A DNA stretch of 64,000 bases, from NCBI RefSeq assembly GCF_009901955.1, contig NZ_WUTS01000001.1, positions 2,952,172-3,016,171 of the forward strand, read 5' to 3'. A program made the position numbers and the translations under genes. The number at the start of each line of letters is the position of its first letter. Positions within the stretch are counted from its first letter, which is position 1. Source of the stretch: Halomonas icarae (lineage in GTDB: Bacteria; Pseudomonadota; Gammaproteobacteria; Pseudomonadales; Halomonadaceae). The notes below the pieces were generated by a model, which saw only the letters and a list, made by a program, of their open reading frames with translations, was not told where the DNA came from and made no database searches. Positions 50,450 to 54,785 of the stretch are shown here, one piece after another.

Positions 50450-51055
50450 CTATCTGGCCCTCAGGCCGGCGAGGATGGTGTCGAGCAGCTGGTCGAGCAG
50501 CTCCCCCACTTCCAACTGCTGGCCCTGCCAGTAGCCCAGCCGCTCGTTAAGGCCCAGCTGTACCAGGCCATGCACGCTGCCCCAGAGGGTGCGCCCCAGC
50601 CGGCGCGCCTCGAGATCATCCAGGGCCGGCTGGTACTCCTTGAGAGTGGCTTCGACACGCAGGAAGAGCGCCTCGATCATCTCGTTCTGGCGCTGGTCCA
50701 GCTCTCCCTCCTGGGCCAGCGGGAAGTCGAACAGCAGCTGCCAGCGATACGCTTCGCGCTGGGCAAACTGCCAGTAGGCACGCGCCAGGGCGCGCAACCG
50801 CTCCTCCGGTGCTGCCTGGCCGGCCAGCGGCTCGACCACCTCGCGCAGATGCCCAAGGGTTTCGATGTTGACGTGCTGCAGGAGGTTGTGAAAGCTGCCA
50901 TAAAGCTTGAGCAGGGTACTGGGCGCGCACCCCACCTCGCGAGCCAGCGCACGCAGTGACAGGCCGTGTACCGAGTTGCCCTGCAACCAGGCATCACAGG
51001 CCGCCATTACCTGGGCATGAAGCGCCTCGGGGGCATGTTGTCTGGGACGAGCCAT
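50450..51055 (-). CDS. TetR/AcrR-family regulator with WHG-type C-terminal domain
   Basis: A 201-residue repressor. The helix-turn-helix is VHGLSLRALAREVGCAPSTLLKLYGSFHNLLQHVN near residues 27-65. The C-terminal ligand domain contains LWGSVHGLVQLGLNERLGYW, the WHG signature. ATG 51055 was chosen; a long in-frame upstream extension overlaps the divergent gene. It probably controls itself and the cotranscribed plsC-like gene, and perhaps the divergent SRAP gene, through the palindrome at 51113-51131. Ligand unknown. Confidence 0.85.
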   Translation of the reverse strand: MARPRQHAPEALHAQVMAACDAWLQGNSVHGLSLRALAREVGCAPSTLLKLYGSFHNLLQHVNIETLGHLREVVEPLAGQAAPEERLRALARAYWQFAQREAYRWQLLFDFPLAQEGELDQRQNEMIEALFLRVEATLKEYQPALDDLEARRLGRTLWGSVHGLVQLGLNERLGYWQGQQLEVGELLDQLLDTILAGLRAR

Positions 51056-51112: not shown

Positions 51113-51131
51113 ATCGAACACTGTTTTCGAT
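51113..51131. promoter_or_regulatory. Candidate TetR operator
   Basis: A perfect inverted repeat ATCGAA-N7-TTCGAT lies in the divergent region between the TetR gene and the SRAP gene, 58 bp before the TetR start and 40 bp before the SRAP start. Assignment to the TetR protein is inference. Confidence 0.5.
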
Positions 51132-51170
51132 AGCCATGTTACCCTGACACTCCCCAGACTCGGAGATTCC

Positions 51171-51845
51171 ATGGCCGGCCGACTGCATATCGCCCCGATC
51201 GACATCAGCCAGCTCGTGCCCGACCTGGTGATGGAGACGCCCCTCTTGACCGGTGCCAACCTGGCCCCCCGACGCATGCTCTCGGGCATTCGCCTGGACG
51301 CGGGCCGGCCGCGCCTGGAACAACTGTTCTGGGGGCTGACGCCGCCCTGGCTGGAGGTGCTGGACCACGCGCCCCATTGCGCCCGCGCCGAATCCCTGGC
51401 GTCGCGCCGCATGTTCCGCGAGGCCTTTCACGCCAGGCGCTGTCTGATCCCGGCCACCGGCGTCTATGTATGGAAGCCCCAGCCACGCTTCAAGCAGCCC
51501 TTCCTGGTCACACGAGTGGACCGCGGCCCGCTGCTGCTGGCCGCGCTCTGGTGTCGCTTCCACACCAGCCTGGCCGAGCACACCGACTCCATGGCGCTGA
51601 TCACCGTGCCGACCAACGGCCTGCTGGCGCCACTCAGCGATCGCCTCCCGGCGGCAATACCACCTGCCGAGGCACGGCGCTGGCTCGATCCGCAGACACC
51701 AAGCGAGGCGGCCCAGGCCATGCTGGCACCGGCGCCCAGGGAACTGTTGGGCGCTTTTCCGGTATCAAGACGTGTGAATAATCCGGCGAACCAGGACGCG
51801 GCCTGCGCCCACCCGGTCGGCCCCATGCTGCGCCACGAGGCCTGA
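51171..51845 (+). CDS. SRAP-fold protein (YedK/HMCES family) lacking catalytic residues
   Basis: A 224-residue protein with the SRAP fold throughout: NLAPRRMLS, FWGLTPPWLE, RAESLASRRMFREAFHARRCLIPATGVYVWKP, ALITVPTNGLL and FPVSRRVNNPANQD align with the family. Active SRAP proteins begin MCGR and use Cys2 to crosslink to abasic sites in single-stranded DNA. Here the start is MAGR, so Cys2 is Ala; the Asn of the NARxE motif is Cys, the Glu of GFYEW is Val, and the His of IHDRMP is Ser. It is probably a DNA-binding pseudoenzyme or has another chemistry. Divergent from a TetR gene. Confidence 0.8.
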   Translation: MAGRLHIAPIDISQLVPDLVMETPLLTGANLAPRRMLSGIRLDAGRPRLEQLFWGLTPPWLEVLDHAPHCARAESLASRRMFREAFHARRCLIPATGVYVWKPQPRFKQPFLVTRVDRGPLLLAALWCRFHTSLAEHTDSMALITVPTNGLLAPLSDRLPAAIPPAEARRWLDPQTPSEAAQAMLAPAPRELLGAFPVSRRVNNPANQDAACAHPVGPMLRHEA

Positions 51846-51872: not shown

Positions 51873-54785
51873 ATGTTGCCTATCCTGTCCGTCGCCCGCT
51901 GCGGGCGACTGCTGCCCCCGCTGCTTGTCCTGCTGGGCCTGGCCTCACAGAGCCTAGCCTCCCAGGCCCTGGCCACCCAGACGGCGACCACCCCCACCGC
52001 GGCCGTCGAGGCAAGCACCACGCCCAGGGTCAGCCCTCACGACGAACGCGACTATCGCGTGTTGAGCCTGGAGAACGGCTTCACCGCCCTGCTGGTCAGC
52101 GACCCCGATGCCGACAAGGCCGCGGCCTCCCTCAATGTCTCGGTCGGCAGCGCCCAGGATCCGGAAGACCTGTCGGGTCTCGCCCACTTCCTCGAGCACA
52201 TGCTGTTCCTGGGCACCGAGCCCTACCCCGAGGCGGATGCCTATCAGGGCTATCTGACCCGCCATGGCGGCAGCCACAACGCCTTTACAGCGCCCCAGGA
52301 CACCAACTACTTCTTCACCATCGAGCCCGATGCCCTCGAAGGCGCCCTGGATCGCTTCAGCCAGTTCTTTATCGCGCCGCTATTCAACGCCGACCGCCTG
52401 GAGAGCGAACGCAACGTGGTGCACTCCGAATATATGGCGCGCATCCGCGACGAGGGCCGGCGGGTCAACGACGTGCTCGACCGCCTGCTGAACCCCGAAC
52501 ACCCCTTCACCGGCTTTTCGGTCGGCAGCCGCACGACCCTGGCCGACCGTCCCAGCGACGAGCCGAGTCTGCGTGAGCGGGTCATCGACTTCTATGCGTC
52601 GCACTACGATGCCAACGTCATGCACCTGGCGATCGTCGCCCCTCAGCCCCTCGACGAACTGGAGCGGCTAGTCGCCGAGCGCTTCGCCACGGTGCCGGAC
52701 CGAGGCCTGGTGCGGCCGAAGATCAGCGACCCGCTGTTCCTGCCGGAGACACTTCCCAGGCGAGTCGCCGTGCAGTCCCTGCGTGACAGCCACCAGCTGC
52801 GCTTTCTCTTTCCGGTAAACGACCCCATCGCCGAGTACCGCCACAAGCCTGTCGACCTGATCGCCCACCTGCTCGGGCATGAGGGCGAGGGTAGCCTGCT
52901 TGCGGCCCTGCGCGAGGCGGGCTGGGCCGATGGGCTCTCCGCCGGCGTCTCGCGGGGTGACGGACGCCACGCCCTGTTCACCGTCGACATCAGCCTGACC
53001 CCTCTGGGGGCAGAACATCGCGATGCCATCGAGGCGAGCCTGTTCGCTGCCATCGAGACGATTCGCGAGGCCGGCCCCGAGGCGTGGCGCTACTCCCAGC
53101 AGGCGCGCCTGGCCGAACAGGGTTTCCAGTTTCAGCAGCACGGCTCGCCCCAGCAGGACGCCATGCGCCTGGCCATGAACCTGGCACGCTACCCGGTGGA
53201 GGATGTGCAATATGCCGACTATCGCATGGATGGCTTCGACCGGGGGCGGACCCGCGACTACCTGGCCGCACTAAGGCCCGACAACCTGATTCGGCTCTAT
53301 AGCGCCCCGGACGTCGAAGGCGAGCGGACCTCGCCCTGGTTCGACACCCCCTGGGGCGACGACGCCTACACCGCCGATGCCACGCCTCGCGATGGGCTGA
53401 TGCTGCCCGAACCCAACCCCTATATCGCCGAAGATCTCGCGCTGCTCGACGCCCAGGACGAGCGCCCTCGACAGCGTATCGATGAAGCCACCTTCACCTT
53501 CTGGCACATGGCAGACGCCAGCTTCGACACGCCCAAGGTGGAGTGGCGCTTCAGCCTGCAACACCCGCGTGCCGCCGAGGCGCCCCGCGAAGCGGTACTG
53601 GCCCGGCTGCTCGCCGGCTGGCTGGAGGATAGCCTCAACGAGGTGCTCTATCCCGCGCGGCTGGCCGGCCAGGGAGTCGAGGCCTACGCCCACGCCCGCG
53701 GCATTACCCTGGCCTTCTCCGGCTGGCGCGATCGTCAGACGGTGGTGATGGAGCGTGTGATCGAGCAGCTTCAGCAGGGGGCCATCAAGCCCGACGCCTT
53801 CGAACGGGTGCGCCATCGCCTGCAGCGGGAGTGGCGCAATGCGCCCCAGGACCCACTCCACCGACAGGCCAACCGAACCCTGGCCGAGACCCTGGTGCGC
53901 CCCCAGTGGCCCACCAATACACTGCTTGAGGCCAGCGAAGGCATGACGCCGGGGGACCTGCGTGAATTTCGCGACATCTTCCTCGACGAACTGCATCTGG
54001 AGGCCATGGCGGTGGGCAATATCGGCGCCGAGCAAGCCGATGAGATTGCACAGCAGATGGCCGACACCCTGGCGCCGAGCCTCACGGCGGCAGCGATTCC
54101 CGACCTGGTCCCGCTGGCTGCCTCCGCGGATCTTCCCGCCCTGACCCCACAGACAGGTCGCGAGGAGTCGATACTGCTGCGCTACCTGCAGGGCCCGGAC
54201 CGCTCCCTCGATAGCCAAGCACGCCTGGCACTGCTCGGCCAGCTGATCGACACCCCCTTCTACCAGCGTCTGCGCACCGAGCAGCAGCTCGGTTACGTGG
54301 TTCACGCCGGCTACTCGCCGATGCTGGATGCCCCGGGTCTCGCCCTGCTGGTGCAGTCACCGGAGACCGATAGCGAGTCGATCGCCGACCATATGGATCG
54401 TTTTCTGCAGAGCTTCGGCGCCACCCTGGAAACGCTGGACGAGGAGGCACTCGCCCCTTACCGCCAGGCGGTGCATGCCGAACTGACCCGGCGCGATACC
54501 AGCCTGGGCGGCCGGACCAATCGCCTGTGGCGCACCCTGGCCTACGGCGATACCGAGTTCGAGCGGCGCGACAAGCTCGCCGAGCGGGTCCTGGCTATTA
54601 CCGCCGACGAGCTGCGCGAGGCCTGGACGGCCCTGCTTGCCAGCCCCGAGGTGCGAGTCGCCTATGACCCGGGCGATGCGCCCACCGACGTGCTGGCATT
54701 CACGGCTGACCTCGAGCCGTTGCCGGAAGGTAAAGAGTGTGGGGCGAGGAGTGAACCCCGGCTGCGCCGGAACGATAAGCTGTAA
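51873..54785 (+). CDS. M16 family zinc metalloprotease, pitrilysin/insulinase type
   Basis: A 970-residue exported protease. A hydrophobic signal peptide covers about residues 1-36. The inverted zinc motif HFLEHMLFLGT near residue 105, with the distant glutamate in the ERNVVHSEYMARI segment near residue 180, marks an active M16 N-terminal half; three inactive M16 domains follow, giving the E. coli Ptr (protease III, 962 residues) layout. It degrades small peptides in the periplasm. Start ATG 51873 has AAGGAG five bases upstream. The last 20 residues (KECGARSEPRLRRNDKL) look like read-through into an intergenic repeat, ending inside it. Confidence 0.9.
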   Translation: MLPILSVARCGRLLPPLLVLLGLASQSLASQALATQTATTPTAAVEASTTPRVSPHDERDYRVLSLENGFTALLVSDPDADKAAASLNVSVGSAQDPEDLSGLAHFLEHMLFLGTEPYPEADAYQGYLTRHGGSHNAFTAPQDTNYFFTIEPDALEGALDRFSQFFIAPLFNADRLESERNVVHSEYMARIRDEGRRVNDVLDRLLNPEHPFTGFSVGSRTTLADRPSDEPSLRERVIDFYASHYDANVMHLAIVAPQPLDELERLVAERFATVPDRGLVRPKISDPLFLPETLPRRVAVQSLRDSHQLRFLFPVNDPIAEYRHKPVDLIAHLLGHEGEGSLLAALREAGWADGLSAGVSRGDGRHALFTVDISLTPLGAEHRDAIEASLFAAIETIREAGPEAWRYSQQARLAEQGFQFQQHGSPQQDAMRLAMNLARYPVEDVQYADYRMDGFDRGRTRDYLAALRPDNLIRLYSAPDVEGERTSPWFDTPWGDDAYTADATPRDGLMLPEPNPYIAEDLALLDAQDERPRQRIDEATFTFWHMADASFDTPKVEWRFSLQHPRAAEAPREAVLARLLAGWLEDSLNEVLYPARLAGQGVEAYAHARGITLAFSGWRDRQTVVMERVIEQLQQGAIKPDAFERVRHRLQREWRNAPQDPLHRQANRTLAETLVRPQWPTNTLLEASEGMTPGDLREFRDIFLDELHLEAMAVGNIGAEQADEIAQQMADTLAPSLTAAAIPDLVPLAASADLPALTPQTGREESILLRYLQGPDRSLDSQARLALLGQLIDTPFYQRLRTEQQLGYVVHAGYSPMLDAPGLALLVQSPETDSESIADHMDRFLQSFGATLETLDEEALAPYRQAVHAELTRRDTSLGGRTNRLWRTLAYGDTEFERRDKLAERVLAITADELREAWTALLASPEVRVAYDPGDAPTDVLAFTADLEPLPEGKECGARSEPRLRRNDKL

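Follow-up and report, generated by a model that had tools for sequence, protein, structure and literature searches.

The window, a stretch of 64,000 nucleotides from Halomonas icarae, encodes a SRAP protein in which all four catalytic residues of E. coli YedK are replaced. The gene appears to be the Halomonas-type orthologue of an old SRAP pseudoenzyme retained through the Halomonadaceae, as the family of the window genome and its relatives is called here. Sequence, predicted fold and analogy with YedK mutants favour, at slightly better than even chances, an ancient pseudoenzyme unable to make the crosslink of YedK, whose probable role is to act on single-stranded or damaged DNA in a reversible way, without covalent attachment.

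The pseudo-SRAP protein and its active-site positions

The reading frame of the gene is complete and opens with a clean ATG at 51171. Residues at the active-site positions are given below for a clade set of 106 members, which comprises 81 core and 24 divergent sequences plus L188, found in another family of the same order.

51162..51165, + strand: Shine-Dalgarno-like GGAG, read from the upstream sequence
51171..51845, + strand: pseudo-SRAP gene, 224 amino acids (ORF, PF02586, predicted fold)
51174..51176, + strand: codon of Ala2, where YedK has the crosslinking Cys2; of 106 clade members 92 have A, 5 P, 5 S and 4 T, and none has C
51378..51380, + strand: codon of Cys70, where YedK has Asn75; 94 of 106 clade members have C and none has N
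51468..51470, + strand: codon of Val100, where YedK has Glu105; 4 of 106 clade members have E, the rest V, A, I, L, Q or D
51636..51638, + strand: codon of Ser156, where YedK has His160; none of 106 clade members has H

The PF02586 profile matches the protein with 138.2 bits (curated cut-off 27.1), which places it in the SRAP superfamily, and solved YedK is retrieved by sequence search at E 3e-19. Its score against PRK09951 of NCBIfam (68.6 bits, cut-off 349) leaves it outside that subfamily. No signal peptide is present, and the PF02586 search of the window's genome identified the pseudo-SRAP as the sole SRAP match. The AlphaFold2 model (pLDDT 93.3, pTM 0.92) may be biased toward the canonical fold, as the alignment behind it contained 9 viral SRAPs, 8 of which were checked and are canonical. 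The top structural matches of the model are YedK and HMCES structures (Z 25.4-27.5; Foldseek, VIA-align), and Z values of 21.2-27.5 over 15 SRAP entries assign it to the SRAP fold. Similarity to E. coli YedK (PDB 6nua, 6kcq, 8d2m) extends over the near full-length fold, with Z 26.2-27.0 for the DNA complexes and 27-28% identity, and most SRAP-wide residues are common to both proteins; unlike YedK, the window protein has all four of Cys2, Asn75, Glu105 and His160 replaced. The SRAP domain of human HMCES (PDB 5ko9, 6oov) is also alike in fold (Z 27.5 and 27.3, 22% identity), but the window protein is devoid of the four active-site residues and consists of the SRAP domain alone (224 amino acids).

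The motifs MAGR, HCARAES, GVYVW and LSDRLP, described in the initial annotation together with the gene coordinates and the complete frame, were the same on re-reading. Their correspondence to YedK Cys2, Asn75, Glu105 and His160 was also found. Cys70 aligns on Asn75, Val100 on Glu105 and Ser156 on His160, and the structural alignment begins at model residue 2 or 3, and at residue 2 in most YedK and HMCES chains. The features of the YedK/HMCES crosslinking enzymes, namely the Cys2 nucleophile, the Glu105/His160 acid-base pair and Asn75 of the NARxE motif, are all missing. The view that these four sites are the main active-site positions needs one correction: Cys2 and Glu105, and to a lesser degree His160, are more important than Asn75. 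For YedK N75A, PMC9436759 reports a very modest effect on crosslinking at an internal abasic site, yet a slower reaction with a 3'-PUA end. A start located further upstream could have supplied a cysteine, but none is encoded by the 21 in-frame codons reaching back to the preceding stop.

Conservation and origin of the clade

Full-length orthologues sharing 62-90% identity were found in 36/36 other sampled genomes of the genus, and in the alignment all four losses are seen again in 37/37 genus genomes, counting that of the window: 34 have Ala and 3 have Thr as residue 2, position 70 is Cys in 37, and Glu105 and His160 are absent. At the family level (f1), matches at E 1e-50 or better were obtained in 184 of 201 genomes and 19 of 24 genera. 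Eleven of the 17 remaining genomes have been examined: nine host a full-length relative at 37-40% identity, and two, from genera g39 and g45, have no SRAP; the others without a strong match are G121, G123, G132, G134, G141 and G149. Among the 80 loci kept of 202 found, named relatives belong to Halomonas, Billgrantia, Litchfieldella, Onishia, Modicisalibacter, Bisbaumannia and Vreelandella.

Purifying selection acts on the pseudo-SRAP gene, as shown by a median dN/dS of 0.27 and a maximum of 0.50 (2829 pairs with dS 0.1-1.2, this gene only). The four substitutions are not due to chance, being seen in every genus genome, and the loss of Cys2 extends to the whole clade set. Orthologues across the family, low dN/dS and conserved gene order together indicate selection and not decay, as had been surmised from the intact frame. 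A decaying or freshly mutated pseudogene would explain the loss of catalytic residues, but the gene is intact, syntenic and under purifying selection in relatives; the conservation data refute this explanation, whose probability is practically nil. Orthologues keeping MCGR, which would have marked the window gene as a mutated copy, were not encountered among those read. An early study of the SRAP family (PMC3765255) terms Cys2 absolutely conserved; it is absent from 106/106 clade members. The initial proposal of a pseudoenzyme is thus supported by the replacement of four catalytic residues in a gene maintained across the family.

In a tree from which the active-site columns were masked (73 rows, built quickly, with SH-aLRT support only, as for all trees here) Halomonadaceae pseudo-SRAPs lie on one side of a branch with support 86. 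L188, in which the four catalytic places are taken by Ala2, Thr, Asp and Ser, joins next (96, long branch), followed by a SRAP clade of family f21 (84). Canonical Halomonas SRAP copies are placed elsewhere (99). Pseudo-SRAPs make up an old, maintained clade. Mobile and viral origins were considered and discarded: matches in plasmid (1640 records) and phage (48 records) sequences are all below 60% identity, and virus scans gave 10 and 15 loci, of which the 8 aligned all keep Cys2, Asn, Glu and His.

Canonical SRAP copies are not rare in the genus. The pseudo-SRAP query gave more than one match in 13 of 37 genus genomes and a single match in 24, many of which may lack a canonical SRAP. The canonical MCGR proteins of same-genus genomes (for example L039 and L045) belong to the same superfamily, at about 30-40% identity, but form a separate clade, mostly keep the catalytic residues, and no M16 gene was found within their short flanks. 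One of them, L041 (genome G019), is a canonical-type SRAP with Ser2 (MSGR) and the remaining active site intact.

At large, 157 of 218 surveyed SRAP rows have C/N/E/H at the four positions, and 31 of the 218 belong to the pseudo-SRAP clade. These figures refer to a set in which rows lacking the N-terminus are retained and which includes 155 loci (L188-L342) found, among the matches listed, by the pseudo-SRAP profile or its viral scan; these 155 are not a random sample. Outside the clade a residue other than Cys at position 2 was noted in L041, L230, L260, four f21 rows (L244, L251, L258, L263) and L206, which is cut off at a contig end and has no N-terminus; this tally leaves out the fragment L174.

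Other SRAPs deviate in different ways. In the f21 clade of the same order (L198, L200, L202, L204, L205, L244, L251, L258, L263) the His160 segment is missing and His occupies the Asn75 place. Three f21 proteins start with MTSRY and one with MSGRY, so that Cys2 is gone and Glu105 is kept. L063, of the same family, has Gln at the Asn75 place. Another partial loss is seen in family f8 (L191, L194, L195, L203), where Cys2 and Asn75 are kept, and Asp and Thr replace Glu105 and His160. The f21 clade (L198, L244, L251, L258, L263) is the nearest to pseudo-SRAPs in the tree (84, not starred), and resembles them in the missing His160 segment and in the loss of Cys2 in some members, but differs in keeping Glu105, in having His at Asn75, and in that no M16 neighbour was found at L198, L200, L202, L204 and L205.

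Positions that vary and positions that are kept

On the tree built without the four catalytic columns, 26 state changes were counted at position 100, 21 at position 156 and 7 at position 2 (six canonical outgroup rows included), and changes at position 2 within the clade are confined to A, S, T and P. The former acid-base sites thus vary, one among mostly hydrophobic and the other among mostly small residues, and residue 2 is confined to four small residues. Cys70 is absent from 12 of the 106 clade members: L188, nine far members and two near ones. The patterns of the contig scan contained APHCARAE and the Cys212 stretch, which biases the Cys70 and Cys212 counts taken from its 80 kept loci (of 202 found); those from whole-genome searches are unbiased. 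A metal or disulfide pair formed by Cys70 and Cys212 was tried as a candidate and proved weak: Cys212 occurs in 36/157 canonical rows and in L188, which has no Cys70, and L167 has Cys70 without Cys212.

The four clade members keeping Glu105 all come from the divergent genus g26 (4/4 members read). In these (L150, L152, L156, L157) the motif GYYEW retains Glu105, and both Cys2 and His160 are absent. The g26 proteins are possible AP lyases, and may represent an evolutionary intermediate.

Arg4, Asn30, Pro33, Trp54 and Arg158, SRAP-wide residues outside the active site, are kept in 106/106 clade members, and Arg72 and Lys108 in 105/106. Among the columns at least 85% conserved in the 157 canonical rows, the most altered in 30 pseudo-SRAP rows are the four catalytic ones, 148 and 159. 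Arg4 and two further arginines are presumably DNA contacts. A general hint on conserved arginines is found in PMC3765255. Retained SRAP residues may serve folding only. At thirty positions, including 2 and 70, one residue is fixed to at least 95% in the core clade and is shared by at most 15% of canonical rows. The canonical rows compared are much the more diverse of the two sets, and the nine far members have lost many of the thirty. Leu5 and Met81, typical of the clade, show no variation in either the core or the divergent members of Halomonadaceae. The thirty fixed positions would suit a new function, without proving one.

The M16 neighbour and the functional readings

The near neighbours of the gene encode a TetR-type regulator, an M16 metallopeptidase, an acyltransferase and CNNM/CorC-type proteins.

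50450..51055, - strand: divergent TetR-type regulator (PF13305 TetR_C_33, 47 bits)
51114..51130, no strand assigned: imperfect palindrome TCGAACACTGTTTTCGA, lying between the TetR-type gene and the pseudo-SRAP gene, candidate operator for the regulator
51873..54785, + strand: pitrilysin-type M16 metallopeptidase, conserved downstream partner (Pfam M16 domains, signal peptide by eye), starting 27 bases past the SRAP stop

The NCBIfam pitrilysin model scores 465 bits on the M16 protein, below its cut-off of 765. All 80 closer loci (kept of 202 found) have the TetR-type gene and 78 have M16, with gene order unchanged; L135 and L137, where M16 is missing, stop at contig ends. M16 is found downstream in 24/24 divergent loci, which come from genomes picked mainly for weak matches, and the TetR-type gene in 15/24, with 0/9 in the far ones. 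An M16 frame also follows L188, its first possible start being located 24 bases downstream of the SRAP. In 52 of the 80 loci a candidate M16 start (ATG or GTG) shares 4 bases with the end of the SRAP frame; 25 have another candidate start nearby, and 3 gave no long frame.

M16 linkage is not a general SRAP trait. A search of the order for M16 gave a match in 73 of 115 genomes, and only 5 of the best-scoring 30 loci have a SRAP upstream, four of them from the window's family, the fifth being L386. No SRAP was found upstream of M16 in L365 and L368, from two other genera of L386's family. The SRAP-M16 pair would have arisen near the base of the pseudo-SRAP clade.

The palindrome TCGAACACTGTTTTCGA occurs in one exact copy in the genome, and two more sites (L389, L390) are found at 2 mismatches. 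Its 15-base core is present upstream of 48/80 relatives in exact form and of 70/80 with at most 2 mismatches, counts taken without a shuffle control. It is plausibly the operator of the TetR-type regulator. No LexA-like site (at most 1 mismatch to a LexA consensus) was found in the 250 bases upstream of the window gene, and 7/80 relatives had one, again without a shuffle control. The pseudo-SRAP and pitrilysin genes are probably co-expressed, and their promoter may respond to the TetR-type regulator rather than to LexA.

The constancy of this pairing, in closer and divergent loci and in another family, and the frequent overlap of the two frames speak for a role away from DNA. The SRAP fold would have been recruited as a protein-interaction partner or regulator tied to pitrilysin or its substrates, and DNA binding lost. 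Core-fixed residues in segments that canonical SRAPs lack or vary (131-134, 194-196, 219) point the same way, although 131 and 134 are not kept in divergent members. A partner that is a periplasmic-type protease and not a repair gene counts against a DNA role. In E. coli, ptrA sits among the recC, recB and recD genes, a parallel to the pitrilysin link. Direct contact of the two proteins is unlikely, because an apparent signal peptide is seen on the M16 protein only and the two are expected in different compartments. The pairing may moreover be transcriptional only, the gap measuring 27 bases in the window, and the SRAP-wide invariant residues are still present. On these grounds a role outside DNA is regarded as rather unlikely.

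Start methionines are normally removed before A, S, T and P. A free amine at residue 2, which is one of these four in 106/106 members, might thus still form a Schiff base at abasic sites, making the protein a weak AP lyase, perhaps aided in the core clade by Cys70 or His69. According to PMC9436759, YedK deprived of the Cys2 thiolate makes no DNA-protein crosslink, as the thiazolidine needs the Cys2 thiol, and the C2A mutant retains both Schiff-base formation and lyase activity. In the same source, Cys2 of YedK is in contact with residue 75, hence Cys70 should adjoin residue 2; with Glu105 present in 4/4 members read, g26 proteins would be similar to YedK C2A H160Q, in which the Schiff-base rate equals that of C2A and the lyase is 2.5-fold slower. 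Against residual activity stand the loss of Glu105 in 102/106, which in YedK strongly cuts both steps (in C2A E105Q, relative to C2A, lyase is 25-fold and the Schiff-base rate about 10-fold lower; PMC9436759), and the absence of Cys70 noted above, and a small residue 2 may be retained for packing alone. Residual or relocated chemistry is accordingly considered improbable. The fixed Cys70 at the active site of the core clade could nevertheless mean chemistry. In a more specific and still less probable version, a long shot, the thiol has moved, and the Met-freed Ala2 amine and the Cys70 side chain would jointly trap aldehydes, at abasic sites or others, as a two-residue SRAP trap. If so, the genus keeping Glu105 would be a surviving intermediate endowed with AP-lyase activity.

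The reading preferred here is the non-covalent one. With the Cys2 nucleophile and the Glu105/His160 pair gone, no thiazolidine crosslink would form at abasic sites, to judge from YedK mutants. Ala2, Val100 and Ser156, combined with the mutant data, make absence of crosslinking likely, and lyase activity is expected to be very poor. The pseudoenzyme retains the predicted SRAP fold and the majority of SRAP-wide residues, and probably binds single-stranded or junction DNA, perhaps at abasic sites, reversibly, as a shield or a reader. A DNA role is plausible, and a non-covalent one the most likely, because the scaffold is kept and because HMCES has a role in alternative end joining that requires DNA binding and not crosslinking (PMC10250235).

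No paper on a natural SRAP without catalytic residues was found among the SRAP/YedK/HMCES/DUF159 matches listed for the open-licence literature (titles and abstract openings), nor any in the open-licence literature coupling Halomonas or pitrilysin with the SOS response-associated peptidase. The annotation derived from the Pfam name, SOS response associated peptidase, is probably misleading for the whole pseudo-SRAP clade. Knowledge of SRAP proteins centres on one reaction, and Halomonadaceae keep a SRAP devoid of the residues for it. As the sole SRAP found in the window genome, it would provide a natural separation-of-function allele, suited to reveal what the SRAP scaffold does without crosslinking, and the genus g26 keeping Glu105 may offer a testable intermediate.
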